Assembly (NCBI GenBank): GCA_012271015.1
Contig: JAAXHD010000126.1
Coordinates: 8,922-53,172, forward strand
Length of the DNA: 44,251 nt
Direction of reading: 5' to 3'
From: Candidatus Poribacteria bacterium
GTDB lineage: Bacteria; Poribacteria; WGA-4E; WGA-3G
Below are positions 19,155 through 43,758 of the stretch, one piece after another. Below the pieces are notes generated by a model, which was not told the origin of the DNA, made no database searches, and saw only the letters and a list, made by a program, of their open reading frames with translations. The stretch's first letter is position 1. Every line of letters begins with the position of its first letter. The position numbers and the translations under genes were made by a program.

Positions 19155-19258
19155 AGAGCATCTTTATTCTAAGCGCACTCGGTACAAAGCACTGAAGCTG
19201 ACTATCAGTAGAATAGAATTTGATTTTCTGTCTCAAGAAATACAGGAGAACGCGCGAA

Positions 19259-20665
19259 ATGAACAGATCAGCACTGCAACTCACCGATAAAGCGATGCGG
19301 GATTTCATCATCAACGGATACGTCAAGGTGAAAACTGATTTCTCACCGAGTTTCCATGAGAAAATTTGTCAACAATTGGACACAATGTTTGAGGAAACCG
19401 GGAATTTGGGGAATAATCTACTACCAGCCATCCCTGAAATTCAAGAAGTCTTTGACCATCCGATCGTTCACGGCGCGATGCAAGGGGTCCTCGGTTCAGA
19501 CTACGTCATGCATCCACACCGATACTGCCATTTTAACCAACAGGGCAGCGAAGGTCAGAATTTTCATAAAGATAGCTACGCAGGAGATGAACAGATCCGA
19601 CGCCACCGTTGCCGCTGGACGATGGCGTTCTATTATCCACAGGATGTTACGGAAGATATGGGGCCCACCGCCGTTCTGCCGGGGTCCCAATATTACGAGA
19701 CGGGTGAGAGTGCACACGAACAACCTGAAGTCGCACTCACCGGCGAAGCAGGGACAGTGACCATTGTCCACTACGACTTATGGCATCGGGCAATGCCGAA
19801 TCGGAGTGACAAGAAACGCTACATGTTGAAGTTTCTCTTTATCCGACTCGATGAACCACAAACGCCTGCATGGAAAAGCGATACCGCTGACTGGCACACT
19901 CTCGGCAACGGAGAAACATCCGAACATTCGGAATTGTGGGAATCGATGTGGGACTGGTATAACGGGAAACAAAATGGGACAAGCAATGGCGTTTCTCGCA
20001 CACAGGTGGATACCCTCATTGAAACCTTGGATAGCGATAACGAAAAAGAGAGGCTAAATGCCGCATATCGTTTAGGGAGAGTCGGTGCCGCCGCTGTGCC
20101 TGCTCTGAATCAAGCGTTGTACAGCCGATCTGATGCTATCCGAAACTACGCAGGATATGCGTTGAGTCTCACCGGTGCCCCCGCGGTTCCAACACTCATT
20201 GACGCATTGCAAGCAACAGACGATGCTGTTCGGGTAAGCGCAGCATTTGCCTTAGCTGATATGGGGAAGGTCGCCCAGGAAGCACTCCCTGCTTTAACGC
20301 GTGCCACACAGGATCCTGACGAACAAGTCCGACGAAATGCGACAGAAGGGTTGGGACTCATCGGACAACAGGTTTCTGAAAACATGGATTTATCCGAGAC
20401 GATCCAAGTATTAACAACCCGATTGCGGGATGACCATTATGCGGTTCGTGATAACGCCGCTCGATCTTTAGCGAAATTGGGTGCACTCGCTGAACCGGCA
20501 GTTTCTACGCTTATCACACAATTGGAAGATGAGGACAGGTATGTCCGCTTCCACGCCGCTTTGGCACTGAAGCAGATTCAAACTCCAGCGGCACAGGACG
20601 CGCTCTTCAATTACCTCTTCACTTCGCGTTGGTGTGCTCTGACAACAAGCGACACGCCTTTTTAG
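19259..20665 (+). CDS. Phytanoyl-CoA dioxygenase-like protein with C-terminal HEAT repeats (copy 2)
   Basis: A near copy of the preceding gene: same domain order, same H-x-D (FHKDSYAGDE) and distal His (DLWHRAMPN), and most residues shared along the whole length. I start it at 19259, where ATG follows an AGGAGAA box, giving 468 residues, the same as copy 1. Differences are scattered, mostly in the repeats and linker (for example WYNGKQNGTSNG against WYSGKQNGVANG), as expected of an older tandem duplication rather than an assembly error. Long identical stretches at the DNA level make gene conversion possible. Confidence 0.9.
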   Translation: MNRSALQLTDKAMRDFIINGYVKVKTDFSPSFHEKICQQLDTMFEETGNLGNNLLPAIPEIQEVFDHPIVHGAMQGVLGSDYVMHPHRYCHFNQQGSEGQNFHKDSYAGDEQIRRHRCRWTMAFYYPQDVTEDMGPTAVLPGSQYYETGESAHEQPEVALTGEAGTVTIVHYDLWHRAMPNRSDKKRYMLKFLFIRLDEPQTPAWKSDTADWHTLGNGETSEHSELWESMWDWYNGKQNGTSNGVSRTQVDTLIETLDSDNEKERLNAAYRLGRVGAAAVPALNQALYSRSDAIRNYAGYALSLTGAPAVPTLIDALQATDDAVRVSAAFALADMGKVAQEALPALTRATQDPDEQVRRNATEGLGLIGQQVSENMDLSETIQVLTTRLRDDHYAVRDNAARSLAKLGALAEPAVSTLITQLEDEDRYVRFHAALALKQIQTPAAQDALFNYLFTSRWCALTTSDTPF

Positions 20666-26507: not shown

Positions 26508-27332
26508 ATGCGTCGGGTTATATTTTTTACGATATTGATAGCACTACTTACTGTGCCAACTCTTCTTGTGAATGCTGCGGACATTGAGGATGGGCTTTGG
26601 CTGTATCTACCGCTGAACGAAGGGACAGGTGAATCCGTCGTCGACCACGGACCCCACGCCTTCGATACAGAACTCAGTAAAGCCGCACCAAAATCGGTTG
26701 ATGCCAAGCACGACGATCTGGGAAAAGCGTTGGAATTTGATGGCAAGTCGACCTACGTCAAAATTGACATGGAAGCTCAGAAGAAAGACATCGATTCTCA
26801 CTTTGGTAAGACAGGCATCACGATCTGTTCATGGGTAAAACCCTTAAAAGTTGGGACCGATGGACACGGACAAACTCGTCAGCCTATTGTCATGAAAGGT
26901 GCCGGTGGACAGTGGGAGTTCGCGCTTTATGTCTACGATGACTTCGGTGCAGGCATGTCTGTCTGGACGTGTCCGGGTTCAGGGGTTTCAGAGCCACACA
27001 CTGCTGGCACCGCGCCACAAGGCAAGTGGATTCACCAATGTGGCACATTTTTGTTGAAGGAAGGGGTACGCGTTTACGTGGACGGTGACAAAAATCCAGT
27101 CGCGGAAGCAGCGGATGGGGGCAACGGTCCCTGTGAGACAGGCACGCGTCCCGTATTCATCGCACACCGTGAAGATGGACAGTGGTTAAATGCCGTTATC
27201 GCTGAGGTCTTTATATGGGATCGGGTGATTAGTGTTGACGAGATGAATCTTGCTATGAACACGATTGGAGGCTTGGCAGTTCAACCCGGAGGGAAACTGT
27301 CAACCACCTGGGGCAATATAAAACGTCGATGA
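26508..27332 (+). CDS. Secreted LamG/concanavalin-like lectin domain protein with W-G-x-I-K-R tail
   Basis: Signal peptide MRRVIFFTILIALLTVPTLL to about residue 23, then a LamG (concanavalin A-like) jelly-roll: LYLPLNEGTGESVVDHGPHA near 33, LEFDGKSTYVKI near 77, ITICSWVKP near 105, VRVYVDGDKNPVAEA near 184 and AVIAEVFIWDRVISVDEM near 229. Such domains bind carbohydrate or protein outside the cell. The last residues read GGKLSTTWGNIKRR, matching the ends of the two propeller proteins at 34.4 and 37.2 kb. It is monocistronic and closes with a strong terminator. Confidence 0.88.
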   Translation: MRRVIFFTILIALLTVPTLLVNAADIEDGLWLYLPLNEGTGESVVDHGPHAFDTELSKAAPKSVDAKHDDLGKALEFDGKSTYVKIDMEAQKKDIDSHFGKTGITICSWVKPLKVGTDGHGQTRQPIVMKGAGGQWEFALYVYDDFGAGMSVWTCPGSGVSEPHTAGTAPQGKWIHQCGTFLLKEGVRVYVDGDKNPVAEAADGGNGPCETGTRPVFIAHREDGQWLNAVIAEVFIWDRVISVDEMNLAMNTIGGLAVQPGGKLSTTWGNIKRR

Positions 27333-30424: not shown

Positions 30425-32134
30425 TTGCTCGATTTCCCAAGAATGTTGCACCCACTTTACCTCTTTGAGGAGGCAGGTGTGTCGTACGCCGCAGACCTTG
30501 AGAAAGCACGGGTCGTCGAACTTTCTCCCGTGATGAGAGACATCCTCAAACTCGCCGAAACACAGACAAACGCTGCGATCGTCGAAACGCTGCGGACTTC
30601 TTATGAAGCCGACGACATCTCCGAAGCGTTTGAGAGATTCGCGGAACTTGAGAGAGAGGGTTTGCTGTTCAATCGCGGGGAAGACTTGCAGGAGCAACTC
30701 ACGACAGAAAGTAAATGGCGGAAACTGCTTGTGGTGCTCCCCGGCATCACTGCGGATTCACTCTTTGATATTGAAATGTTGTCGGCTGGCACCAACATGG
30801 CACTCTCCTATATGGTTCAGCATCTCACGAGGTATGCGGATTTGCATTTTGCGAGGTCTCGGAACCGGAAGATCACAGATAGCGTGTATGAAATCGACAT
30901 CGGTATTGAGGACCTGATACGGCTGCGGTCAAAAATCGGCGAAACGTATTACGGCATCCTGACCTTACACTTGGAGCAGGAGCGGTGGTTGCTTCCGCTT
31001 TACCGATACCCAGAGTTCCCACCGATCCTCGTTCAGAGTCATGCGCCCCGCGGACACGGCGGGCAAGCAATGAATTCCATTCTGCGCCATTACGCTGCCA
31101 TGCGGAAGTGTGATGGGTTCACGGCACCCTCAGATTACGTCCGTGAGTTCTATACCGACTACGTCTGGGATCCGAGTTTCTTTAATACATTGCCCAACGG
31201 TGTAGATTCGGCGTTATTTCGACCGATGGATAAAGCGGCGAAACGTGAAATTGCGAAAAGGGTCGGCGATGATCGGATTGAGGGAGTGCCGACCGTTGGG
31301 TATCTCTCGCGTGTGCAATCTGAGAAAGGCGCATCCGTTTATGTGAAGTTAGCCGAACTGAATCCGCATCTGATTTTTTTGATAGCGGGTCCGAACATGG
31401 GACGGTATGCGTCCCGGAAACTCCCGGACAACCTCGTCTATGTCGGCTTCCATCCGCGCGAGAAACTCCCGCTCATCTATAATGCCTTCGATGTGTACTG
31501 TTTCCTCTCAATGTCGGGTGAAGAGACGTTCGGGTTGACGGTGCTTGAGGCAATGGCGTGCGGGGTGCCGCCGGTCGTCCCGAATTTCGATGGTGTTCCA
31601 TCGGTTGTCGGGGATGCTGGGTTGATTGCGGATGCCGAGAATTTCGACCAAGACATCGCAACACTCGTGAGTTATCCATCCCCGATAGACTTTTCCCGGA
31701 AGATCAACCTGCTATTGAACAACGATGAATTGCGGGAAACGCTTTCCGAGAAAGCGAGGGAACGGGCGGTCTCCTTCACGTGGGATAAGACAGCGTACCG
31801 CATCGTCCAGTTGTTTGAGGAACTTCACCGGAAAAAGAAACTGATTAATCCGAATAGACTCTTAAACGTGTTCGTCCCGGCACAACCCTTAGAAGAAAGC
31901 CCACAAGAACCGACGTACAAATCGTTTGTGCTGAGTATGAACGAACATTACGAGCGGTGTCTCATACGAGATGCGGTGTATCCACTGCGCATTGAGAACG
32001 GATTGGCACTCAGCATCTTAAAAGAGCATACACCCAGAGAAGCGGAAGCGATTCTTGCCGAATGGGTGCCTGATGAGACGGAAGCAAGAGCAATTCTCAA
32101 AAGGGTTCGCGGTCTTATTGATGGAACTGCTTGA
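30425..32134 (+). CDS. Glycosyltransferase with N-terminal PqqD/RRE-like domain (GT1)
   Basis: Residues about 7-85 (HPLYLFEEAGVSYAADLEKA, then E-L-S-P-V-M-R-D-I-L-K-L and ERFAELEREGLLF) have the strand and winged-helix pattern of PqqD-like RiPP recognition elements, as at the N-termini of SPASM peptide maturases. A GT-B, GT4-like catalytic region follows, with the donor-site VGYLSRVQSEKG (K301) and an intact E-x7-E (EETFGLTVLE, E367 and E375). The C-terminal 70 residues form a small helical tail (LKEHTPREAEAILAEW) shared with the next protein. I infer leader-peptide-guided glycosylation of the peptides downstream. The TTG start is supported by AAAGGAA 11 bases upstream; an ATG at 30443 is an alternative. 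569 residues. Confidence 0.82.
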   Translation: MLDFPRMLHPLYLFEEAGVSYAADLEKARVVELSPVMRDILKLAETQTNAAIVETLRTSYEADDISEAFERFAELEREGLLFNRGEDLQEQLTTESKWRKLLVVLPGITADSLFDIEMLSAGTNMALSYMVQHLTRYADLHFARSRNRKITDSVYEIDIGIEDLIRLRSKIGETYYGILTLHLEQERWLLPLYRYPEFPPILVQSHAPRGHGGQAMNSILRHYAAMRKCDGFTAPSDYVREFYTDYVWDPSFFNTLPNGVDSALFRPMDKAAKREIAKRVGDDRIEGVPTVGYLSRVQSEKGASVYVKLAELNPHLIFLIAGPNMGRYASRKLPDNLVYVGFHPREKLPLIYNAFDVYCFLSMSGEETFGLTVLEAMACGVPPVVPNFDGVPSVVGDAGLIADAENFDQDIATLVSYPSPIDFSRKINLLLNNDELRETLSEKARERAVSFTWDKTAYRIVQLFEELHRKKKLINPNRLLNVFVPAQPLEESPQEPTYKSFVLSMNEHYERCLIRDAVYPLRIENGLALSILKEHTPREAEAILAEWVPDETEARAILKRVRGLIDGTA

Positions 32135-32149
32135 AAGAAGGAGAAAACG

Positions 32150-33787
32150 ATGGTAACTCACACGCGTTACCGCTTAAAACAGCACCATAAATTTGAGCAG
32201 GACGATCGGAAATATGTCGCAGACCTCGAAACCGGCGACATCGTTCAGGTAAACGACGTGGAATGGGAAATTCTGTCGTGTTATGCGTCGCAGACGCGGT
32301 ACCAGATCGTAGAGGCACTCAAAAAAACATACAAATTGACTGTTATCTTTGACGGGATCGAGCGTTTGGAACAACTTGGAAGACAAGGAACCCTTCTGCA
32401 CCGAGTCGTTGAGGCAGTGGAACCAACGGCTGTGCATGGGCAGCAACGCGATCAGAAACCCAAAATATTGGTCCCGTTCCATTTTACGGGAGAGAAGTCG
32501 TCGTTGGATTACCTCACGAACCTCAACCGCTATCAGTTTTTGACTCACCTTGCGGCGTTCGCCGAGTTGGAAACGCTGTCGTTTCCTGAAGAAAAGAAGG
32601 AAGCCTTCCAGGATCTTGATGCGGTTCGGGTTCGGAACATAGACGTAGCGGCAGGGAATGCCTTGATGCCGCCGTGGTATGCGATAGATAACTATGAGGG
32701 TATCCTGCTGCTCTCGCAATTCTTGACGGACGATCTGTTATACTATCGAGTCCCCGATGTGCCGATTGTTCACTGCGTAGAGGCTATCCAGCAGATACCC
32801 CAACACGTTTTGCTGAAAACGCTTCTGACGCTCAGTGCGTTCCAAAGTCCAAAAGATACGCTGGTCGTCAAAGCCTCATGGATGAAGGAATGGCTTGCTG
32901 AATTAGGGATAATAGAAGACAACGTGCGCGTGATCCCGGATGGGATAGACGTTGTTGCGCCGATCGGTGATAAGGCATTGGCAAAACAGCACACCGCCGC
33001 TATCTTTGAGAAACCGATGTTTGCGAAGCAACCGGTTGTCGGGCTGATCTCTGGATTTGAACCCAATCGCGGTGCAGCATGGATTTCTGCGTTCGCCAGA
33101 GAGAACCCACATCTCGCTATTTTTGTCTACGACACAATGTTAGAGCAGCATTACCGATATCCGCCAGAGAATGTCGTCATTTTCAGTGCCGATGACGAAG
33201 AGACGCGATCGGTGCTGCCGATATTCTTCCAAGCGTTGGATCTCGTCTGTTTCCCTGCGATGCCGGGCACTCCGCTGTCGGTTGTCTTAGAGGCGATGAC
33301 GTATGGCGCGCCGTGTGTTGCGATAACGAAGTATGGGATGCCTCCGGAAGTTGCGGGGGCCGGTGCTGTTGTGGAGTCGGAAGGGAGTGATTTCGGTAAT
33401 TTCCGTGTCCCGATATCTGAGGTGTCGAACACGGTAAATCAGTGGTTGACCCCCTCTCATACACGCACCAAATGCGAGGACGTGGCAAAGCGTTTAGCGC
33501 AAAAATTCACTTGGGAAAAAGTAGCACAAGAAATCGTTCAGTGCCTTGAAGAAGGGCATCAGCAAAGCGTGAATGCTTTCAGAAATGAAATATATTTGTC
33601 TCCGTCGGTTTTTTGTCGTCGGTATGACGTGGAGACTGGAACCACCGGGTCCAGTGTGTATCGCCTGGGGACCAATAGATATGACTGCCTTAAAACCGCT
33701 TTGATAGAAATGTTAGCGGAACAGCATACACCTGCTGAACTCGAGGCAGTTTTCAAGCATTTCCAAGGGAAGGCTTCGCTTCCGTAA
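32150..33787 (+). CDS. Glycosyltransferase-like protein with N-terminal PqqD/RRE-like domain (GT2)
   Basis: 545 residues, 15 bases after GT1 with an AAGGAG site, so clearly one operon. Residues about 12-85 repeat the PqqD/RRE pattern (KFEQDDRKYVADLETGDIVQ, then V-E-W-E-I-L-S-C-Y). The GT-B body is recognisable (VVGLISGFEPNRGAAW, then LEAMTYGAPCVAIT), but two donor-site residues differ: the first Glu of E-x7-E is Gly373 (GTPLSVVLE) and the usual K-G Lys is Arg307. It may be a non-catalytic partner of GT1 or use another donor. The C-terminal tail (AEQHTPAELEAVFKHF) matches that of GT1. The last codons overlap the first arm of the structured leader of the peptide gene downstream. Confidence 0.8.
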   Translation: MVTHTRYRLKQHHKFEQDDRKYVADLETGDIVQVNDVEWEILSCYASQTRYQIVEALKKTYKLTVIFDGIERLEQLGRQGTLLHRVVEAVEPTAVHGQQRDQKPKILVPFHFTGEKSSLDYLTNLNRYQFLTHLAAFAELETLSFPEEKKEAFQDLDAVRVRNIDVAAGNALMPPWYAIDNYEGILLLSQFLTDDLLYYRVPDVPIVHCVEAIQQIPQHVLLKTLLTLSAFQSPKDTLVVKASWMKEWLAELGIIEDNVRVIPDGIDVVAPIGDKALAKQHTAAIFEKPMFAKQPVVGLISGFEPNRGAAWISAFARENPHLAIFVYDTMLEQHYRYPPENVVIFSADDEETRSVLPIFFQALDLVCFPAMPGTPLSVVLEAMTYGAPCVAITKYGMPPEVAGAGAVVESEGSDFGNFRVPISEVSNTVNQWLTPSHTRTKCEDVAKRLAQKFTWEKVAQEIVQCLEEGHQQSVNAFRNEIYLSPSVFCRRYDVETGTTGSSVYRLGTNRYDCLKTALIEMLAEQHTPAELEAVFKHFQGKASLP

Positions 33788-33880
33788 CGAATGAATTCGT
33801 CTTGGAATGGATTTCCCACCCACGGTTGGGAAGTCAATCTCGCCGGAACAGAAGCACCGGCAGAAAGGAGAAAAACCGAG
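33761..33880 (+). promoter_or_regulatory. Structured 5' leader of peptide 1 (copy L1)
   Basis: Stems seen: TTCCAAG (33761-33767) with CTTGGAA (33801-33807), enclosing hairpins GGAAG/CTTCC (33768-33783) and ACGAA/TTCGT (33787-33800), an ideal three-way junction. Then TTTCCC (33812-33817) with GGGAAG (33828-33833), and GCCGG (33842-33846) with CCGGC (33857-33861). An AAAGGAG ribosome-binding site follows immediately. The first arm lies in the end of the upstream coding region. Copies L2 and L3 keep the outer and downstream stems with different bases. Confidence 0.72.
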
Positions 33881-34123
33881 ATGAAAAAGAATCTCCGCGG
33901 TAAAATCCGCGAATTCGTCCAGTCTGAAGAAGGCAAAGTGGGTATCAAATCCCCACTGACACTCGGTGTCGCAACTGGTAGCGTCCTATTGGCACAAATG
34001 GTTGTGGGAACTCCACAGACAGTGGCATTTAAGGAGTGTTTGGGTCATGGTGATTGCATGTTTCCCGAACGTTGCCATAATGCTAATCCAGATTTAGGTA
34101 TCAAAGGCACTTGCCACGAATAG
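33881..34123 (+). CDS. Small cysteine-rich peptide 1, candidate RiPP precursor
   Basis: 80 residues. A basic helical start (MKKNLRGKIREFVQ) is followed by the conserved SEEGKVGIKSPLTLGVATGS and a hydrophobic stretch that could act as a signal peptide (VLLAQMVVGTPQTVAF). The tail after about residue 50 is different from its two relatives except for cysteines: C-x5-C-x5-C-x12-C. Start chosen at 33881, ten bases after AAAGGAG; an upstream in-frame ATG at 33791 lies within the structured leader. I infer a leader/core precursor acted on by the RRE-fused glycosyltransferases; a secreted disulfide-rich peptide without sugar is the alternative. Confidence 0.72.
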   Translation: MKKNLRGKIREFVQSEEGKVGIKSPLTLGVATGSVLLAQMVVGTPQTVAFKECLGHGDCMFPERCHNANPDLGIKGTCHE

Positions 34124-34133
34124 CACAATGCTT

Positions 34134-34168
34134 CGATGAGATTTCTTCAGTTTGAAGAAATTTCATCG
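34134..34168 (+). terminator. Hairpin after peptide 1
   Basis: CGATGAGATTTCTTC pairs along its whole 15 bases (one G-U) with GAAGAAATTTCATCG around a five-base loop, 10 bases after the peptide stop. There is no T-run, so it may stabilise or end the short transcript. Confidence 0.65.
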
Positions 34169-34409
34169 ACTCTCAAGTTAGGATGTGCTTGATAGTAGGT
34201 ATCCAATATCGGATGAGATTATTTTAAAAAATCGAGGTCTACCCCCATCTTTCAAAACAAGAAATAATAAAAATAAGGTGAACTTGGTATAGACGGATGG
34301 ACAAACTCATATTAGAAAGATTCAGAAAGGCTGAGGAAGTAAATTCGATAGTGAAACAGGTTTTGAAGTTATCGTTCAAATCGCAAGATGCTTTTAGGAG
34401 GTAAGTCGT

Positions 34410-35420
34410 ATGAGAATGATGAGAGTGTTAGTCTTTTTCTTACTTAAGGTGTTAGTTCTGAATACTAACGTTTACTCAGTTTTCGCTAAAGCACCTAACA
34501 CGCCGAAAATTCTGTTTACTTCTGTCCAAGATGTACAAGATAATAGGAATTACGGGGTCTACCTCATGAACCCAGATGGGTCCGAACAAGTAAACCTTAC
34601 ACATCATCACTCAAATGATCTGAGGGCCATCTGGTCACCGACAGGCGAGGAGATTCTTTTCGTTTCCGATCGCGATGGTGTTCGAGATCTCTACCTGATG
34701 GACGCAGATGGAAACAACGTCCGGCGCGTCTTCAAGAAAAAGATACATAGAGCATATCCGAGTTGGTCTCCCGACGGCAAACAGATTGCTTACACACAGG
34801 TGCGCTGGGACAATGACAGGTATCCTCTCTATATCGCATCGATTGGAGGACAGGAAGAGGAGGACCTTGGTGTGGATGGACTTTTTCCAGCATGGTCTCC
34901 TGATGGTAAGGAGATCGCTTGCTCTGTAAGGGGTCGCATTACATTTATCAACGTCCGAACAAGGAAACAAAAACGACTTCTACCTCGAAATGTAGCAGGT
35001 CATCAATTAAGAGCGTCTTGGTCAGCTATAGGCGACAAACTCGCCTTTTCTTGGAATAAGAATCCGCTACCGCCAGACCGTAAACCCCGTGATCCGTTTC
35101 CGCCCGGATGGGCTGATAAGGAGACAATCTACATTGTCAACCGTGATGGTACTGAGCTTCAGCAACTGGTGGATGAAGCGGGCCCCGAGGCATGGTTTCC
35201 TGAGTTATCGCCAAATGGCGATACAGTCCTTTATACGCAGGAAATTAAGGGTTTTATGCAGATCTTCAAAGTTGATGTGAATAACGGTATTCGGACACAG
35301 TTGACGCATATTGGTGTCCGAAATCTTGGAGGGGACTGGTTTGATCCGGCGTATGCGTTACCGGTTTCACTACAATCCCAGCTGCTCACGACAACATGGG
35401 GAGAACTAAAACGGGAGTAG
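34410..35420 (+). CDS. Secreted TolB/PD40-type beta-propeller protein 1
   Basis: 336 residues. An N-terminal hydrophobic signal (MRVLVFFLLKVLVLNTNVYS) is followed by PD40/TolB-like blades: YLMNPDGSEQVNLTH, then IWSPTGEEILFVSDRDG, LYLMDADGNNV, SWSPDGKQIAYTQ, AWSPDGKEIACS and ELSPNGDTVLYTQ. Such propellers bind peptides or proteins in the periplasm or outside. The end is GGDWFDPAYALPVSLQSQLL followed by TTTWGELKRE. AGGAGG eight bases before the ATG supports the start. A paralogue at 37198 also follows a small peptide gene, so peptide plus propeller looks like a repeated unit. Confidence 0.88.
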   Translation: MRMMRVLVFFLLKVLVLNTNVYSVFAKAPNTPKILFTSVQDVQDNRNYGVYLMNPDGSEQVNLTHHHSNDLRAIWSPTGEEILFVSDRDGVRDLYLMDADGNNVRRVFKKKIHRAYPSWSPDGKQIAYTQVRWDNDRYPLYIASIGGQEEEDLGVDGLFPAWSPDGKEIACSVRGRITFINVRTRKQKRLLPRNVAGHQLRASWSAIGDKLAFSWNKNPLPPDRKPRDPFPPGWADKETIYIVNRDGTELQQLVDEAGPEAWFPELSPNGDTVLYTQEIKGFMQIFKVDVNNGIRTQLTHIGVRNLGGDWFDPAYALPVSLQSQLLTTTWGELKRE

Positions 35421-35560
35421 GATCTATCGGAAACAGAGTCTTTCTCTATCTTGTGGATAAATTATTGTGAACGTAACATCAACCAACTCCGAGTCCAATA
35501 TGAAAAAAGGCAATTGATGAATGCACTACCCTAACAGGCGATGTAGAGGAGTCCGAATCC

Positions 35561-36570
35561 ATGCGTCAACTACTCACTGACTTTTATCAAGAGGCCGCCC
35601 ATTCCTCTGACCTTACACCTCTCTTTGCGGACCAATACTTAGAGCAAGATCATCAGGGTATGTCTCAGCGACGGCGTGTCAGCGGTGTCATCAGCAAGAA
35701 TACCTCCAGTGGTCAGCAACGCGGCACGCTTTTGCCTTTGAAACCCTTCTGAAAAAGGAACGCTACTTTGATGCTGGATGTGTCTCCTGCCATACCACTG
35801 GACTCGGTTATCCAACGGGGTTTCAGATAGGTGATCAGGATTCAACGCTCAAAGGCGTGCAGTGTGAAACGTGCCACGGTCCCGGCAAGCAGCACGTCGG
35901 CAACCCCAAAAAGAGCAACATCCGCAGTGCTGCGGATACATCGCTGTGTTTGGAATGCCACGACACGAAACACTCTCCCGGATTCAAAGATGTGGTCGCA
36001 CTGCATACCAAGGATGTTGATCACAGCCGATCACCGATGAACTTGGAGGAACTCTTGACCTCCCGCATCGCACGTGTTGGGAAGCCGACCTTGGAATTGT
36101 TTGTGATGAGCTATTGTCCTTTCGGTGTTCAGGCGGAAGAGAAGATTATTCCGATCGTGAAGGAGTTTGGTAACAAAATTGACTTCAAACTCCAATTCAT
36201 TGCAAAGGAAAAAGAAGCACCTTCACCACAGGATATAACGCCGTTTACGAGCCTGCACGGTTACCCCGAAGTGGCGGAAAACATCCGGCAGCTGTTAATA
36301 GCACGAGAATACCCTGATAAGTATCTGGACTATATTCTATGTCGGGGCAAGAAATTGGACAAGAGTTGGGAAAACTGTGCGGAGAAACTCGGTATTGATG
36401 TGGCGAAGATTCAGGAATTATTTGACAGTCCGGCAGCCGAGCAACTTTTCCGGGAAAACATTCAGCACGCCGCAGCACTAGGCATTCGAGCCTCCCCGAC
36501 AATTTTAGTCGATGGACATCAATTTCGGGCCAATCAACTCCTGCGTGCAAGTGGAACACCGTGCCAGTAA
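35561..36570 (+). pseudogene. Multiheme cytochrome c fused to thioredoxin-fold (DsbA-like) domain, frameshifted and 5'-truncated
   Basis: The frame from 35561 (and in-frame from 35504) reads M-R-Q-L-L-T-D-F-Y-Q-E-A-A then D-H-Q-G. Near 35655-35660 one base is missing and the sequence continues in another frame: Y-V-S-A-T-A-C-Q-R-C-H. Four CxxCH heme motifs follow (CQRCH 35677, CVSCH 35779, CETCH 35863, CLECH 35947), as in cytochrome c554-like proteins. A thioredoxin-fold domain comes next, with LELFVMSYCPFGVQAEEK and the cis-Pro segment RASPTILVDG. No export signal is left. From GTG at 35857 an open 237-codon frame remains, enough for the thioredoxin part. An intact form would handle electrons or thiols outside the cytoplasm, which would fit cysteine-rich peptides. 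Confidence 0.72.
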
Positions 36571-36654
36571 TTACAGTTCACAAATTGGATAAACACCGTT
36601 CAAACAACCAACAAGGATGATGAACCTTTTTTTAAAAAGCCATTAGAAAGCATG

Positions 36655-36775
36655 TCCAGGGGAAGGGCTTCACTCCCGTAGCGATAGTATTCGTCCTGGA
36701 GATGGGTCTCCCAACTGGAGTTGGAAATTCAATTTTGCTGGAACAGAAGCACCGGCAGAAAGGAGAAAAACCGAT
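36655..36775 (+). promoter_or_regulatory. Structured 5' leader of peptide 2 (copy L2)
   Basis: TCCAGG (36655-36660) pairs with CCTGGA (36695-36700); inside it GCGA (36681-36684) pairs with TCGT (36691-36694). The other inner hairpin is weaker here (GGG 36665-36667 with CCC 36675-36677). Downstream stems are CCAAC (36711-36715) with GTTGG (36720-36724) and GCTGG (36737-36741) with CCGGC (36752-36756). AAAGGAG follows. Overall DNA similarity to L1 is high, but the paired arms differ in a matched way. Confidence 0.68.
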
Positions 36776-37006
36776 AGGAAAAGCAACCTTCGCGATAAAA
36801 TCCGTGAATTCATTGCATCTGAGGAAGGCAAGGTAGGAGTCAAAGCACCACTGACGCTTGGTGTCGCCACGGGTAGTGTTTTGTTAGCAAACGCAATCGT
36901 TGGGGCAACACCTGCTGAGGCAGGATCACCATGCATGAGGGATAGAGATTGTGAATACGCACCCTTTAGGTGCTTAATAGAGCACGGCAGTTGTGAAACT
37001 AATTAA
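36776..37006 (+). pseudogene. Small cysteine-rich peptide 2, candidate RiPP precursor with lost start codon
   Basis: The frame is clearly homologous to peptide 1: R-K-S-N-L-R-D-K-I-R-E-F-I-A, then SEEGKVGVKAPLTLGVATGS and a hydrophobic stretch to A-E-A-G. The tail keeps four cysteines, C-x5-C-x6-C-x6-C, ending S-C-E-T-N. At the position of the ATG in peptide 1 the codon is AGG (36776-36778), and I find no ATG, GTG or TTG in frame between the previous stop and there. The rest of the frame is undamaged, so start loss is recent, or a rare start codon is used. Confidence 0.65.
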
Positions 37007-37067
37007 CATTGGAGTACGAATCTGAGTAAGTACTTTAATGTTCTAAAGAAAATCTCAGGAGCAGCAA

Positions 37068-37102
37068 CTGGGTGTGACTTGTTTTGCGACACGCACACCC
37101 AG
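37068..37102 (+). terminator. Hairpin after peptide 2
   Basis: CTGGGTGTG (37068-37076) and CACACCCAG (37094-37102) form a perfect nine-base stem 62 bases after the peptide stop. No T-run follows. Confidence 0.55.
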
Positions 37103-37197
37103 TCCGTTCAAGAGTAGACTTCTTCTAACATATCAGTGTTACACCTTCAAACCTCTCAAGATATTAGCACCTTTATCCAGGTAAGGAGGAGTTATGA

Positions 37198-38169
37198 ATG
37201 AGACGTTCAACATTAGTTATCCTGTGCCTTTTCAGTTTGGGACTGTTAGAAATGAACGTGTGTGTCGTTTTTCCCAAGGCACCCAGCACAGCAAAAATTA
37301 TGTTTGGAACCTACCGTGGTGAAAATCGAGAACTTTATCTCATGAATCCAGATGGCAGTGAGCAAGTCAATATTACCAATAACCGCGCAGACGATATCAG
37401 TGGTAGGTGGTCCCCGACGGGAGAACAGATTCTTTTCGCTTCTGACCGCGACCGGGGGGAGGGTTGGGATCTGTATCTGATGGATACCGATGGTAAAAAT
37501 GTCCAACCCGTCTTTGAGAAATCAGAAGATAGGCGACATCCTGAGTGGTCGCCCGATGGAAAACAGATCGCTTACATGCGCACCGTAGGGGGTGTGGGAT
37601 ACGTCTACATCGCCACAAGTGATGGAAAAAATGAAGAACGATTCGCGATTGGTGGTTCTCCTGCTTGGTCCCCAGAAGGCAACGAACTCGCTTTTGTCGT
37701 TAGAGTCGCACCCGACCGCCTGAACATCTATCTTCTCAACGTCCGCACACGAAAACAGAAACATTTTTTCCCACCCGATGACATCAGCACAGCGAGAGAG
37801 CCTGCTTGGTCCCCTAATGGAACCAAACTTGCGTTTATGTGGCATCAAAAACGACCGCAAGATGAAGGGGAAATCTATACATTGAATCGCGATGGAACGG
37901 GGCTCCAAGAATTTGTAAATCATCCTGAAGAAGGGGTTACAGCACCAGTGTGGGATCCGGACGGAAAGGCACTAATTTATTCACAAGAGGTCGGAAAGTG
38001 GGAAATACACGTTTTCAAAATTATGTTGGCGGATGGTCCTTCGGAACGACTGACAGATGTTGGTCTCTGGAATAATCCTGGTGATTGGTTTGATCCGGCG
38101 TATGCTTTGCCCGTGTCTCCACAACTGCAGTTGCTCCCTACGGTGTGGGGTGAACTGAAACGGAAGTAG
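37198..38169 (+). CDS. Secreted TolB/PD40-type beta-propeller protein 2
   Basis: 323 residues and paralogous to the protein at 34410 along its whole length. Signal peptide MRRSTLVILCLFSLGLLEMN, then blades LYLMNPDGSEQVNITN, RWSPTGEQILFASDRDR, EWSPDGKQIAYMR, AWSPEGNELAFVV, AWSPNGTKLAFMW and VWDPDGKALIYSQE. It shares LLNVRTRKQK and the ending GDWFDPAYALPVSPQLQLL with PTVWGELKRK. The ATG follows AAGGAGGA. Periplasmic or extracellular peptide binding is the most I would infer. Confidence 0.88.
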   Translation: MRRSTLVILCLFSLGLLEMNVCVVFPKAPSTAKIMFGTYRGENRELYLMNPDGSEQVNITNNRADDISGRWSPTGEQILFASDRDRGEGWDLYLMDTDGKNVQPVFEKSEDRRHPEWSPDGKQIAYMRTVGGVGYVYIATSDGKNEERFAIGGSPAWSPEGNELAFVVRVAPDRLNIYLLNVRTRKQKHFFPPDDISTAREPAWSPNGTKLAFMWHQKRPQDEGEIYTLNRDGTGLQEFVNHPEEGVTAPVWDPDGKALIYSQEVGKWEIHVFKIMLADGPSERLTDVGLWNNPGDWFDPAYALPVSPQLQLLPTVWGELKRK

Positions 38170-38230
38170 TATTCATAAAAATAATTTTATTTATCCTTGT
38201 GTAATAGCTTATTGAATCAGTTTTTAAACA

Positions 38231-38353
38231 TTTTCAGCGGGATAGTTCCACCCCATACGCGATACGGTTCGTGCTGAAAATGGGTTTCCTGACAATGCTG
38301 AGGAAACGAATCCCGCTGGCGTGGAGCACCGGCAGAAAGGAGAAACTCTATAA
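38231..38353 (+). promoter_or_regulatory. Structured 5' leader of peptide 3 (copy L3)
   Basis: TTTTCAGC (38231-38238) pairs perfectly with GCTGAAAA (38273-38280) around GGG/CCC (38239-38241 with 38251-38253) and GCGA (38259-38262) with T-C-G-T (38269-38272). GTTTCCT (38284-38290) pairs perfectly with AGGAAAC (38301-38307), and GCTGG (38315-38319) with CCGGC (38329-38333). AAAGGAG follows. A competing perfect pairing exists in this copy only: AGCGGGAT (38236-38243) with ATCCCGCT (38310-38317), which would break both the first and the last stem. Confidence 0.72.
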
Positions 38354-38617
38354 ATGAAAAATAACTCGGTTCGCAGGAGAATTCGTCATTTCCTCAAATC
38401 CGAAGAAGGCCGCGTCGGCATTAAATCCCCGTTGACTTTGGGTGTAGCAAGCGCAAGTGTGTTGCCCGCTCAGGCAATCGTCACGCCTCCCGTTCAGGCA
38501 CATTTAACGTGTATTCCTGGGACGGATGACTGTGCAGAAGATGAGTATTGCTCAGTTTGGTGTGACGAGTGGAGTGGATCAACCTGTATAGGGGAATGGC
38601 ACAGTCAATGCGAATGA
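38354..38617 (+). CDS. Small cysteine-rich peptide 3, candidate RiPP precursor
   Basis: 87 residues. The leader M-K-N-N-S-V-R-R-R-I-R-H-F-L-K is followed by SEEGRVGIKSPLTLGVASAS and a hydrophobic stretch to P-P-V-Q-A-H. The tail has six cysteines (C-x6-C-x5-C-x3-C-x7-C-x7-C) and is rich in Asp, Glu and Trp, with a Dickkopf-like D-D-C-x5-C spacing; Ser and Thr occur near the cysteines. Start chosen at 38354, 11 bases after AAAGGAG. Same inference as peptide 1: leader plus variable core. No propeller gene follows this copy. Confidence 0.72.
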   Translation: MKNNSVRRRIRHFLKSEEGRVGIKSPLTLGVASASVLPAQAIVTPPVQAHLTCIPGTDDCAEDEYCSVWCDEWSGSTCIGEWHSQCE

Positions 38618-38757: not shown

Positions 38758-38793
38758 TCTATAAGATTTCAGAGGACCCACAAAAAAGGTTTT

Positions 38794-39111
38794 ATGCAAG
38801 CAATTATTCTATGCGGTGGGTTGCGGACGCGGTTGGGTGAAACTACGAAAATGCTCCCCGAGGATCCGAACCTTTTGTGAGAAATAATCAACCCGTTCTG
38901 CAGAGTATATCAATGTTGGAATGTATCTCTTCAATCAAAGGATTTCCGACGCATTTCCTACACAACAGGAGAGTTTCTCAATTGAGCGGACGTTTTCCCA
39001 AATGTCTATGATCTTTATACATTACAAGTCGATGCGGATTGGATTGACATTGGCGTTCCAGAGCCGCTGGCATATGCCCGAAAACACTTCCAAAATGGAG
39101 AATTTCAATGA
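38794..39111 (+). pseudogene. Sugar-1-phosphate nucleotidyltransferase remnant, internally deleted and frameshifted
   Basis: The 5' end is intact: an ATG then MQAIILCGGLRTRLGETTKM, the nucleotide-binding G-G-x-x-T-R-L motif of NTP-transferase enzymes such as mannose-1-phosphate guanylyltransferase. It stops at 38880. After a gap with F-V-R-N-N-Q-P-V, C-terminal pieces follow: N-V-G-M-Y-L-F-N-Q-R-I near 38913-38945, then in another frame N-V-Y-D-L-Y-T-L-Q-V-D-A-D-W-I-D-I-G, ending at 39111 and overlapping the mutase start. Only about 106 codons remain of a usual 230 or more. Originally it probably worked with the mutase to make an NDP-sugar. Confidence 0.75.
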
Positions 39112-40586
39112 ATCGGGATATCTTTAAGGCGTATGATATTCGTGGCATTTTCGGAGTTGACTTTCAACCGACAGATTTTTACGAAATTGCCCGCGCTTTT
39201 GCCGATCATTTCCAACCCAAAATCGTTGCTCTCGGACACGATGTCCGCGAAAGTTCACCGCGACTGTGGCGGCAAGTTGCCCAAGGACTTGTAGACTCGG
39301 GGGTTGAAGTCCTCAACCTTGGTGAGATTTCGACCGATATGCTCTATTTCGCTGTTGTGCACTACCAGACAGATGGCGGCATTATCATCTCGGCATCTCA
39401 CAATCCGGCTGAATATAACGGTATGAAACTCGTCCGCCGGCATGCCGCACCGATATCCGCCGATACCGGTCTCTTTGATATCCGAGATACCCTCAAAACC
39501 GACACCCTATCTCGGGAGCAAAAAACATACTGTCGTGCAATCCCTGAACCTCTTCCATTCTTGAATGTCTATCTGAAGCACCTTCGCTCATTTACAAACT
39601 TGCAGCAGCTCTCCAGTAAGCGGATTGTCATTAATGCCAACAGTGGACTTGCTGGACAGATTGCCGAACATCTGTTAGCAGGAACACCCATCGAGATATG
39701 CGAGCGGTTGTTTACCCAACCCGATGGCACCTTCTCCAAGATCCCCGCCAGCAGACCTGATCCGCTCAGACCCGAGAATCGGGAATTAACCACACAGGCA
39801 GTGAAACGGACAAAAGCGGATTTGGCAGTCGCATGGGACGCAGACGCCGACAGATGTTTCTTCTTTGATGAAAATGGGGTATTTGTCGAAGGCTGCTACA
39901 TTACAGCATTGCTTGCCGAAAAACTCCTGCAGGAGAGAGGGAGACAAACTGTTATCTTTGATCCGAGAGCCGTCTGGGCAGTTGAGAACGCTGTGGTTTC
40001 TGCCAATGGCACACCGCTTCTCAACCGATGCGGACACTCATGCATCAAAACCTGCATGCGAGAAACCGACGCACTCTTCGCAGGAGAGGCGAGTGGACAC
40101 TACTACTTCAAAGACAACTTCTATACCGATAATGGAATGATTCCCTTATTACTCATCCTTGAATACCTGATCGCAAACCAGACATCACTCGCCGAATCTG
40201 TTGATAGCCTCCGATCCACATATCCAGTTTCAGGTGAAATCAACTTCTCCTTTGAAACCCAGCGTCATAAGCGAGAGGCTATAAAGATCATCCAACAAGA
40301 AATATACGCTTTGGGGAACCAGCCCTGTATTGAAATGCCCGTTGACGGTTTGTCGGTCAGATTTCATACAGGTTTCCGTTCACTTGCTGCGAATGGTTAT
40401 GGACAAGGTAATTGGCGGTTCAATCTCCGGGAATCGAACACTGAACCCTTGTTGCGACTCAACGTTGAAACGATTAGCGACGAGGATCTTCTCATTGAAA
40501 AGACAATGAGAATCAGCAAAAAACTTGAGAGCGTTGGCGGTAAACGCCAAACAAAATTCCGCTGGGAATCTGAAAAATCTGCATGA
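39108..40586 (+). CDS. Phosphohexomutase (phosphomannomutase/phosphoglucomutase family)
   Basis: 492 residues, normal for the alpha-D-phosphohexomutase family, which interconverts hexose 6-phosphate and 1-phosphate for NDP-sugar synthesis. Start IFKAYDIRGIFG; catalytic phosphoserine loop IISASHNPAEYNGMK near 96-110; magnesium loop WDADADRCFFF near 243-253; sugar-binding GEASGHYYF near 326-334; phosphate-binding RESNTEPLLRL near 443-453. The start overlaps the end of the ruined nucleotidyltransferase, consistent with a former operon. Mannose or glucose specificity cannot be decided here. Confidence 0.92.
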   Translation: MNRDIFKAYDIRGIFGVDFQPTDFYEIARAFADHFQPKIVALGHDVRESSPRLWRQVAQGLVDSGVEVLNLGEISTDMLYFAVVHYQTDGGIIISASHNPAEYNGMKLVRRHAAPISADTGLFDIRDTLKTDTLSREQKTYCRAIPEPLPFLNVYLKHLRSFTNLQQLSSKRIVINANSGLAGQIAEHLLAGTPIEICERLFTQPDGTFSKIPASRPDPLRPENRELTTQAVKRTKADLAVAWDADADRCFFFDENGVFVEGCYITALLAEKLLQERGRQTVIFDPRAVWAVENAVVSANGTPLLNRCGHSCIKTCMRETDALFAGEASGHYYFKDNFYTDNGMIPLLLILEYLIANQTSLAESVDSLRSTYPVSGEINFSFETQRHKREAIKIIQQEIYALGNQPCIEMPVDGLSVRFHTGFRSLAANGYGQGNWRFNLRESNTEPLLRLNVETISDEDLLIEKTMRISKKLESVGGKRQTKFRWESEKSA

Positions 40587-40827: not shown

Positions 40828-43758
40828 ATGGTAGAAGATGATGTTCAACTCATCGATAAGATTTTGGCGGGCGACGATGAAGCCTTCACAGCATTAGTCC
40901 GAAAACATCAGAAGAGTGTTCACGCGCTGGCTTGGCGGAAGATAGGTGATTTTCATTCTGCTGAAGAGATTACGCAGGATGTCTTTCTTCGCGTCTACAA
41001 GCACCTCCCAAAACTAAAGGATCCCCGTCAGTTTTCTGGGTGGCTTTACGTCATTACAAATCGGTTGTGTAAGACCTGGCTCCGAAAGAACAAATCCTTG
41101 ATGGAATCGCTGGAGGATGTCCCCATGGCAGAAATAGAGAAAACGTTCTATGAGCACTATGTATCGGTAGAACAGGAACAGGACGCTCAGACATATCGTT
41201 TTGAGCTCGTCAGGAAACTTTTGGAAAAACTACCTGAGAGTGAACGCACCGTCATAACGCTCTACTATCTCGGCGAAATGACAGCAAAGGAGATCGGCAA
41301 GTTTTTGGGTGTGTCAGTGAACACGGTTACGAGTCGACTACAGCGGGCGCGAGAGCGTTTAAAACAGGACGAGGAACTCTTAGTGCGAGAGTTGCTCGGG
41401 AGTGTCCAGTTATCTGAGAGTCTAACACAAAATATCGTGCGGAGAGTTGCGGATATGAAACCCCTGTCTCCTTCAACGGGGAAGCCGTTACTACCGTGGG
41501 CAGCCTTCGGTGCGGCTGCTGTTTTGGTGGCACTGTTCCTGTTAGGTGTGAGCAACCAATACCTTGTACGGTTTCAAAAACCCTATAGTTTCAAGGCACA
41601 GTCCGAACCGACGGTTGAAATTATTGACGCGCCTGTTGTTCTCAATATTGATGCAAAACCGGCTGTGCGAAATCAGGCAGGACGTGCTGCCACGACCAGT
41701 AGCAACACGGGTGCTGGTGCACAGGTCTCCGAATCGGATGTAGCGTCCCACGCACAGGATGGGGCAATCAGACTTTCAGCGTCGCAGTGGGCACAGACAG
41801 CAGGACCGCAAGGCGGTGCTGTTTTTGATATATTCGCGACAGCTGAAGGGACGATTTACACGCTTTCACCGACAGGTATCTACAGGCTGAGACCGGATGC
41901 CTCGGCATGGACGCTCATAAACAGCAGCGTACCCATTGAAGGTTCCTGGATGCCCATGGCGGCACATGAGGAGATGCTCTATATCGTCTCCAAAGATATG
42001 GTATTTGCCTCAACCGACGATGGTGAGACATGGGAAGCCCTCTGCCCCCGTCCAGAGGGGCATGCCATTGAGTTAGTAATCGTAAATGAAGCACAAGGGA
42101 GCGATTCCCGCGAGCATCCTACGATGTATCTTGCCCTCCGAGATAAAGGCGTATTCCGCTCTACGGATGTGTATGGTCAGTGGGCTCTCCTTGACGATGG
42201 ATGGATGGGGGGAACGATTTCTGCGGTGGCTGTGGTCGGAGACACGGTGTTTGCTGGCACGGACAATGGTCTCTACCGATTGAATTCAGGCACGTGGGAA
42301 CGCTTACTTGCGGATGTGTCCGGATCCATCTATTCCTTAGCCGTTGATGAAGGGAGTCTCTATGTTGGAACCGGTCCTGATTTTCTTGCCCTACAACAGA
42401 TTGGATCAGAGCCAAAGGAGGTCATGCAGATGATGTATGACGACGATTTAAGTTCAAACAAGGCGTTTCACTCAAGGGACTTGGGAGCGTCATGGACTGA
42501 AATAACGCCGACAAGTGGATCGCGTCCTGTAATAGCACCGTCCGGCATGGATTTGTTGGTTGCCGGTAAAACGATCTTAGCACAAGCCTTCACCCGATTC
42601 CAGTCAAAAAACGGTGGACAGACCTGGACCGACCTTGGGTTTGACAGGGATTCGTTCGTACTCAGTGGTTTTGCATCTGTAGCAGGGAATGAAAATACAT
42701 TTTACAAAGCAGGGAAATTGGGCGTTTATCGAACAACCGACGGAGGTGAATCGTGGCATCTGTTCATGGATGGAATGGTGGGAACCCGGGTACTGGATTT
42801 GGTCACGTTCAATAACAGACTCTACGCACATACCGGTGATGCCCTTGTCCAATCAAGAGACGATGGTGGGTCGTGGAAAACCGTTCGGATTGACCTTGTT
42901 TTTTCGCATTCACGGTTAACGGTTGCCGGAAATATTCTTTATGCAATTTCACCTGAAATCGGTATTTCGGGTATTTTCCGTTTATCCGCTGATGGCGATG
43001 AATTCGTCCCGGTTCAAGGGGTGCCAATGTTTGAAATGGATTTCCCATCTATTAAGCTATTGGCGGATAGTGAAGACACTGGACAGGCACATTCACCTCA
43101 AGGGCATGAAAGCGACGATAACTTGGTAGAGACATTGCGTCATAGAGAACATATGAAAACTGGGGCATTTGCAGTCAGTGATGAAACGTTTTACGCCGAA
43201 TATAAGCGGCAACTTTTCAAATGGCAACCCGGTGATGCAGCGTGGACAGGCACGGGATTGGTAGACACCGACACGCACCCTGATGAAACATTGGATAAAA
43301 CGTTTAAGTTAGCGGTTTCAGGGGACACCGTCTACGTCGGGAAGCGGGATGGCAAGTTGTTCCAATCACTGGATGGAGGGAACAGCTGGAAGGACATCAC
43401 GTCGTCCCTTCCGTTCCCGTTTACTGCTTTCACGGAGATCGTCTTTGCAGGATCAATGGTTTACGTCGCGACAGACGCAGGGGTCTTAGCCTCACAGACG
43501 GGTTCACACTGGCGCGTGATCACCGACGAAGTGACTATAGACAGATTCGCTGTGGACGGTGCCACGCTTTATGGTGCGGGGGATATGGGGGTCTATTTCC
43601 TGGATGCGCATGGCGAATGGAAGCAAATTTCTCCAAGTGTTCCCGGTGAGGTGCTCTCACTTGTCGTTCACCGCGACAGACTGTATGTGGCAACCGAGCG
43701 GCGCGGGATGTTCCACATCTCACTTCGGGAAGAGGGGGATACCGTGTCTCGTAAATAG
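40828..43758 (+). CDS. ECF sigma factor fused to a membrane-anchored beta-propeller
   Basis: 976 residues in one frame. Sigma region 2 is about 18-90 (DEAFTALVRKHQKSVHALAW, then EEITQDVFLRVYKHLPKL). Region 4 is about 130-185 (LPESERTVITLYYLGEMTAK, then SVNTVTSRLQRARERL). After a linker resembling the cytoplasmic part of anti-sigma proteins comes one membrane helix near 222-243 (WAAFGAAAVLVALFLLGV). From about 320 to the end runs a beta-propeller of BNR/Ycf48-like blades with S-x-D-x-G-x-x-W (TDDGETWEAL, KNGGQTWTDL, TDGGESWHLF, RDDGGSWKTV, LDGGNSWKDI). I infer that the propeller senses something outside and controls the sigma part, by proteolysis or conformation. ATGGAGAATTCTC precedes the ATG. 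Confidence 0.9.
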   Translation: MVEDDVQLIDKILAGDDEAFTALVRKHQKSVHALAWRKIGDFHSAEEITQDVFLRVYKHLPKLKDPRQFSGWLYVITNRLCKTWLRKNKSLMESLEDVPMAEIEKTFYEHYVSVEQEQDAQTYRFELVRKLLEKLPESERTVITLYYLGEMTAKEIGKFLGVSVNTVTSRLQRARERLKQDEELLVRELLGSVQLSESLTQNIVRRVADMKPLSPSTGKPLLPWAAFGAAAVLVALFLLGVSNQYLVRFQKPYSFKAQSEPTVEIIDAPVVLNIDAKPAVRNQAGRAATTSSNTGAGAQVSESDVASHAQDGAIRLSASQWAQTAGPQGGAVFDIFATAEGTIYTLSPTGIYRLRPDASAWTLINSSVPIEGSWMPMAAHEEMLYIVSKDMVFASTDDGETWEALCPRPEGHAIELVIVNEAQGSDSREHPTMYLALRDKGVFRSTDVYGQWALLDDGWMGGTISAVAVVGDTVFAGTDNGLYRLNSGTWERLLADVSGSIYSLAVDEGSLYVGTGPDFLALQQIGSEPKEVMQMMYDDDLSSNKAFHSRDLGASWTEITPTSGSRPVIAPSGMDLLVAGKTILAQAFTRFQSKNGGQTWTDLGFDRDSFVLSGFASVAGNENTFYKAGKLGVYRTTDGGESWHLFMDGMVGTRVLDLVTFNNRLYAHTGDALVQSRDDGGSWKTVRIDLVFSHSRLTVAGNILYAISPEIGISGIFRLSADGDEFVPVQGVPMFEMDFPSIKLLADSEDTGQAHSPQGHESDDNLVETLRHREHMKTGAFAVSDETFYAEYKRQLFKWQPGDAAWTGTGLVDTDTHPDETLDKTFKLAVSGDTVYVGKRDGKLFQSLDGGNSWKDITSSLPFPFTAFTEIVFAGSMVYVATDAGVLASQTGSHWRVITDEVTIDRFAVDGATLYGAGDMGVYFLDAHGEWKQISPSVPGEVLSLVVHRDRLYVATERRGMFHISLREEGDTVSRK

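Follow-up and report, generated by a model that had tools for sequence, protein, structure and literature searches.

A predicted family of cysteine-rich RiPP-like peptides encoded beside paired RRE-glycosyltransferases in Poribacteria

What are the short cysteine-rich peptides that a Candidatus Poribacteria bacterium encodes in three copies within 44,251 nucleotides of contig JAAXHD010000126.1 (assembly GCA_012271015.1; this whole stretch is called the window), and are they substrates of the two glycosyltransferases encoded just upstream? To answer this, we computed the gene family, its division into leader and core, the domains of the enzyme pair, their co-occurrence with the peptides, synteny and an RNA leader. 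We consider it fairly probable (roughly 60%) that the peptides are precursors resembling those of ribosomally synthesized and post-translationally modified peptides (RiPPs). They would be glycosylated under the guidance of their leader by RRE-GT_A and RRE-GT_B, two proteins that join a RiPP recognition element (RRE) to a glycosyltransferase (GT) domain, and would then undergo Sec-type export, trimming and disulfide formation.

A preliminary description of the window had reported three copies of a peptide with a near-constant leader and a variable cysteine core, and its account of these genes was borne out. The copies lie where it had placed them (Table 1), they agree pairwise at 34/49, 32/48 and 29/48 leader positions as far as the A-x-A-like site (60-69%), and the cysteine spacings are exactly those it gave. 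Peptide 2 is probably a dead copy, because it has AGG in place of the initiator and no in-frame ATG, GTG or TTG ahead of the hydrophobic stretch, the earliest in-frame start being a TTG at 36881, within that stretch; its RNA leader and core are intact. A profile made from the three sequences matched them with E values of 1e-36 to 5e-43, which hold by construction because the profile was built from the same copies. Library scans found no Pfam or NCBIfam family for the peptides.

The family extends well beyond the window. Chance can be set aside as the origin of the pattern, for profile searches independently found further members in the source genome (4.94 Mb, 438 contigs; five members in all with the three-sequence profile) and in many relatives. 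Of 85 Poribacteria genomes searched with an 18-sequence profile, 40 hold the family, one of them with 20 copies, the highest number. Scanning the GTDB genome collection for a pattern, an approach that reaches close relatives only, gave matches in Poribacteria only. About 135 distinct members were read. Because both the genes and the genomes that were counted are related to one another, nominal p-values turn out too small. The leader motif F-x3-E-[E/D]-G-[K/R]-V-G-x-[K/R] is near-invariant across subfamilies: among the 117 members that hold it, G is kept in 117, E in 116, V in 113 and F in 111. Short open reading frames (ORFs) with a similar motif, F-I-x-L-E-T-G-S-V-G-V-K, and no cysteine tail also occur on the minus strand of locus L032 (near 1132 and 1443). 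The leaders of the 91 main-subfamily members contain no cysteine, and these members show 57 distinct cysteine spacings; four cysteines are present in 46 of the 90 distinct cores and six in 31 (together 77/90), while 11 have five.

The ratio of nonsynonymous to synonymous substitution rates (dN/dS) is about 0.15 in the leader and about 0.24-0.42 in the core in usable bins, so that the comparison of the two proposed in the preliminary description points to a relaxed core. Positive selection on the cores was considered and rejected: their dN/dS exceeds that of the leader but stays below 1, and few pairs are comparable. Because only 29 of 3085 pairs of cores are collinear, the cores appear to diversify mainly through changes in length and cysteine spacing, positive selection being without evidence. 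Conserved tails, the finding that the preliminary description had named as speaking against it, were not seen; only the sub-motif G-[T/S]-C is kept, in the main subfamily, and distant subfamilies lack it. Threonine or serine precedes the fourth cysteine in 42 of 46 four-cysteine cores, with glycine ahead of it in 41 of 46, and the fifth cysteine in 27 of 31 six-cysteine cores, the background frequency of the two residues being 9.8% overall. The peptides are thus ribosomally encoded with a conserved leader and a variable core, as RiPP precursors are. In 119 of 124 members an A-x-A-like signal-peptidase site precedes the first core cysteine by no more than 12 residues, in agreement with the Sec export that had been held possible, and simple rules recognize a positive n-region, a hydrophobic h-region and an A-x-A c-region. 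The two options raised in the preliminary description, multi-precursor RiPP and Sec-exported peptide, may both be true.

The enzymes encoded directly upstream carry RRE domains, a key piece of context that the preliminary description had not reported. The RRE comprises the first ~85 residues of each, and a profile of both N-terminal domains matches residues 6-83 of CteB, a SCIFF maturase, with an E value of 1.3e-14. RRE-GT_B matches the NCBIfam model not_ScfB over residues 10-83 (E 2e-5) as well as the CteB RRE (E 8e-12), and a weak PqqD match was found in 13 of 21 members. In the AlphaFold2 (AF2) model of RRE-GT_A, residues 1-80 form a b-b-b-a-a-a (b, strand; a, helix) arrangement whose top Foldseek matches are the CteB structures 5wgg and 5why; confidence in the RRE region is moderate to good for both enzymes. 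For both N-termini CteB is the best match, followed by the lasso RRE TbiB1 in complex with a leader peptide, and the N-terminus of RRE-GT_B also matches another leader-bound lasso B1 RRE. Full-length profiles of either enzyme match both the CteB RRE and GT4 enzymes, in RRE-GT_A within one protein, which also matches Pfam Glycos_transf_1 (E 2e-25). The GT4 catalytic motifs R-x4-K and E-x7-E are present in 13 of 14 RRE-GT_A sequences, the exception (L089) resembling a B protein, whereas RRE-GT_B has lost the catalytic R, K and first E in 14 of 14. The two are thus predicted to be a catalytic/pseudoenzyme pair.

Enzymes and peptides also travel together. Among 60 genomes, 28 contain peptides and RRE-GT_B, two peptides only, none the enzyme only, and 30 neither (nominal Fisher p 4e-15, overstated because the genomes are related). 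The two peptide-only genomes (G002, G028) are fragmented metagenome-assembled genomes, 81-86% complete, and two genomes that seemed enzyme-only with the three-sequence profile (G034, G036) marked its limit of sensitivity, as a broader profile gave peptides in both. The arrangement RRE-GT_A, RRE-GT_B, peptide, propeller is found repeatedly, with synteny across the phylum, and for 82 of 123 distinct peptide ORFs the labelled gene that follows next encodes a beta-propeller. By sequence, fold and co-occurrence, then, a PqqD-like RRE is encoded together with a precursor, and the pattern of constant leader and diversifying core that had suggested a multi-precursor RiPP is supported. These observations bear directly on the alternative that survives best, improbable as we judge it: that the peptides are unmodified disulfide-rich secretion products of an ordinary kind (toxin-, antimicrobial- or host-directed) with a long, well-conserved signal peptide, and that the GT genes are mere neighbours. 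The A-x-A-like sites, the even cysteine numbers, the weak resemblance of one core to Dickkopf_N (E 0.2) and a DsbA-like gene in the clusters would all suit such peptides. Yet the charged n-region is conserved far more than Sec requires, both neighbouring enzymes carry RRE domains, and enzyme-positive genomes without peptides are absent while synteny holds phylum-wide.

In the pathway that we favour, the RRE domains of RRE-GT_A and RRE-GT_B would bind the constant leader (F-x3-E-[E/D]-G-[K/R]-V-G-x-K) in the cytosol, and the catalytic A subunit, assisted by the non-catalytic B subunit, would place a sugar on the variable cysteine-rich core, perhaps on the Thr/Ser of the conserved G-[T/S]-C. The hydrophobic stretch of the leader would then direct the peptide into the Sec pathway, where signal peptidase would cleave at A-x-A, an A24-like membrane protease of the cluster would trim the leader and a DsbA-like fusion protein would assist disulfide formation, if the steps follow in this order. 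Each product probably works with the secreted beta-propeller encoded directly downstream. That the sugar is mannose is a guess, made because a phosphomannomutase (PMM) and a mannose-1-phosphate guanylyltransferase-like gene occur in many clusters and GDP-mannose GT4s are among the structural relatives.

Some of the partners named in this pathway are taken from the clusters of relatives, which contain in addition an S-adenosylmethionine (SAM) methyltransferase, the A24-like (prepilin-peptidase-like) protease, a UshA/cytochrome c554/DsbA fusion, a sugar nucleotidyltransferase and PMM/phosphoglucomutase (PGM), the sugar-nucleotide genes (NTP transferase, PMM/PGM) being present in many. The A24-like protease matches Peptidase_A24 (E 4e-5) and Arc_PepC (E 6e-4), gives only noise in sequence searches of the PDB, and has two aspartates of catalytic type, in TD and GD, that are invariant in 11 of 11 aligned copies. 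The window cluster lacks the methyltransferase and A24 genes, and only remnants of the DsbA fusion and nucleotidyltransferase are left. The lost functions may be supplied in trans, because further clusters of the same genome, on C427 (L088) and C63 (L089), carry A24 and DsbA-type genes.

Several points weigh against the proposed glycosylation pathway. The motif G-[T/S]-C is not a general site, because distant subfamilies do without it; the two GT4 genes beside PMM and the nucleotidyltransferase could serve surface polysaccharide instead; and a Sec-type signal peptide is unusual in an RRE-dependent RiPP. The full-length AF2 models of both enzymes were set aside, being poor beyond the RRE (mean predicted local distance difference test, pLDDT, 38-39). 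The counts share the relatedness described above.

Two further alternatives concern the cluster partners, and we hold each to be very unlikely. The peptides might be pilin- or archaellin-like small surface subunits: A24 would cleave behind the invariant Gly in EEG, leaving the hydrophobic segment in place, and the GT pair would attach a sugar to the subunit, pilins being glycosylated too. The A24-like protease with its invariant aspartates, which lies also near distant subfamilies (L071, L072, L075, L077, L082, L086, L087, L089), and the F-x3-EEG-x-VG motif, which we take to be reminiscent of class III signal peptides, point that way; but Pfam gave neither a pilin nor an archaellin hit at E<=1 for the scanned peptides, their +5 residue is K/R/Q and not E, the A-x-A site would serve no purpose, and no pilus assembly gene was identified among the labelled genes beside the clusters. 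The idea that these are RiPPs whose RRE-GT pair has a role other than glycosylation, or which are matured by the methyltransferase or another enzyme, can draw on the SAM methyltransferase of many clusters and on the fact that homology alone cannot give the function of an RRE-GT fusion, but is countered by intact GT4 catalytic motifs and by five loci (L056, L059, L077, L087, L089) in which GT_A/B, A24 and peptides are present and the methyltransferase was not detected.

How does the glycosylation pathway compare with known systems? Glycocins such as pallidocin and sublancin are likewise short cysteine-rich ribosomal peptides with disulfides, glycosylation by a cluster GT being only proposed here. 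They use a SunS-type GT, a double-Gly leader and a peptidase-ABC exporter, whereas the Poribacteria system has GT4 enzymes with RREs and a Sec-type leader ending in A-x-A, and no peptidase-ABC exporter was identified among the genes examined. The CteA-CteB system of SCIFF (ranthipeptide) maturation offers the closest solved RRE by sequence and fold (5WGG/5WHY) and also a cysteine-rich core, but the RRE-bearing neighbours of our peptides are two GT4 proteins without a radical SAM domain, and no radical SAM protein was found among the genes examined. The two-partner layout recalls GtfA/GtfB of the accessory Sec system, in which a catalytic GT4 and a non-catalytic GT-like partner glycosylate an export substrate in the cytosol, as is predicted for the Poribacteria pair; GtfA/GtfB have no RRE, their substrates are huge Ser-rich adhesins, and the family match of the RRE-GTs is weak (TIGR02918, E 0.006). 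With type IV prepilin and archaellin processing by A24 peptidases the system shares the A24-like protease and the invariant Gly at a charged/hydrophobic boundary, but the peptides lack E5, have A-x-A behind the hydrophobic stretch and carry a tiny cysteine core. By its predicted anatomy, therefore, the system is RiPP-like, and by the features tested it is neither a glycocin nor a SCIFF system.

RRE-glycosyltransferase fusions themselves have been noticed before. The pertinent passages of the RRE-Finder study (2020; PMC7470986) flag such fusions, alike in joining an RRE to a glycosyltransferase, as absent from known RiPP classes, and there name neither precursor nor mechanism, whereas the Poribacteria family has precursors, a catalytic/degenerate pair and conserved partners. 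A 2025 RRE study again reports glycosyltransferases that carry RREs, these belonging to a different Pfam family, PF00535 (PMC12710340), and a survey of sponge biosynthetic gene clusters describes proteusins and other RiPPs in passages that make no mention of the peptide family (PMC9426513). Our literature search found no Poribacteria paper on the family and nothing joining RiPP leader peptides with prepilin peptidase.

The main-subfamily genes also share a structured RNA leader. About 150 nt upstream of them are conserved, with three hairpins directly before the ribosome-binding site; for peptide 1 the helices are 33759-33768/33800-33808, 33812-33819/33826-33833 and 33842-33846/33857-33861, the first overlapping the last codons of RRE-GT_B. 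In 46 diverse sequences, 92% of cells pair and 13 of 23 pairs show two-sided changes; the observed values were reached by 0-6 of 500 shuffles, and the signal was lost on sliding the partners. Paralogy can inflate the shuffle statistics; direct evidence comes from the two-sided changes, one pair occurring as GC, CG and UG, for example. The minimum free energies of the single window elements are modestly low (z -3.1, -1.4 and -1.3). A riboswitch of known type was rejected: the 5' leaders have no Rfam match at E<=10, and model matches are tied to peptide-bearing genomes. The model was found in five such genomes and in none of seven others lacking members by the three-sequence profile, one of which (G036) later gave distant-type peptides with the broader profile. 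In G010, 15 of 17 matches end at a peptide start, but only the distribution is informative, because the model was trained up to the ATG. Remnants of the last RRE-GT_B codons (VFKHFQ) precede other peptide copies, which suggests that the duplicated unit arose at the GT_B-peptide junction.

Table 1. Coordinates of the peptide cluster and adjoining genes in the window
Feature	Position	Strand	Remarks
RRE-GT_A	30425..32134	+	N-terminal RRE + GT4 glycosyltransferase; R-x4-K and E-x7-E kept; predicted catalytic subunit
RRE-GT_B	32150..33787	+	N-terminal RRE + degenerate GT4 domain; predicted non-catalytic partner
RNA leader of peptide 1	33733..33883	+	Covariation; model R1 E 8e-31
Precursor peptide 1, 80 aa	33881..34123	+	ATG start; leader, hydrophobic stretch, C-x5-C-x5-C-x12-C core
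TolB-like PD40 beta-propeller	34410..35420	+	N-terminal signal-like stretch; Pfam PD40 E 1e-18
Remnant of UshA-like/cytochrome c554/DsbA-like fusion	35647..36570	+	C-terminal part of ~620 aa; full length in relatives, e.g. L036
RNA leader of peptide 2	36626..36778	+	R1 E 4e-27
Peptide 2	~36776..37006	+	C-x5-C-x6-C-x6-C core; AGG in start codon place
Second TolB-like PD40 beta-propeller	37198..38169	+	Pfam PD40 E 4e-27
RNA leader of peptide 3	38204..38355	+	R1 E 1e-27
Precursor peptide 3, 87 aa	38354..38617	+	ATG start; C-x6-C-x5-C-x3-C-x7-C-x7-C core
Sugar nucleotidyltransferase remnant	38790..39105	+	47% over 85 aa at 38861; intact in relatives, mannose-1-phosphate guanylyltransferase-like
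PMM/PGM	39108..40586	+	NCBIfam PRK15414 E 3e-107; often adjoins these clusters

Some observations on the surroundings may be added. The DsbA-like remnant (35857-36570) has C-P-F-G at the expected CxxC active-site position, and its thiol chemistry may therefore be non-standard. A short C-terminal motif, L-T-T-x-W-G-x-[I/L/V]-K, occurs in 72 of 107 propellers and in LamG-like and other secreted-looking proteins, with instances in the window at 26508-27332 and in both propellers and in many relatives; it is possibly a C-terminal sorting tag of Poribacteria. The protein encoded at 40828-43758 combines an ECF sigma factor with a long domain of BNR-like repeats, a hydrophobic, transmembrane-like stretch linking the two; such proteins often lie near peptide clusters in relatives, and a membrane-tethered sigma factor with an outside sensor, as this one may be read, would be unusual. 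On one contig (G018:C2), much of the cluster is present in two near-identical copies (L063 and L064, ~2-22 kb and ~238-258 kb). At 17748-19154 and 19220-20665, two closely similar proteins are encoded in tandem which, as read from sequence, resemble phytanoyl-CoA dioxygenase and have HEAT-like repeats.

We tentatively suggest, at somewhat less than even odds, that the family represents a new RiPP class: Sec-exported disulfide-rich glycopeptides with a catalytic/pseudoenzyme RRE-GT pair, A24-type trimming, secreted propeller partners, control by a family-specific structured mRNA leader and an expansion, in sponge-associated bacteria, to as many as 20 precursors in a genome. With the Poribacteria family, RRE-glycosyltransferase fusions gain identified precursors, a candidate site, a protease and an enzyme of two subunits whose division of labour can be tested, so that co-expression can address the function of the fusions directly. 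It also exposes a large, diversifying peptide repertoire, accompanied by a dedicated structured RNA outside Rfam, in Poribacteria, which are major uncultured symbionts of sponges.

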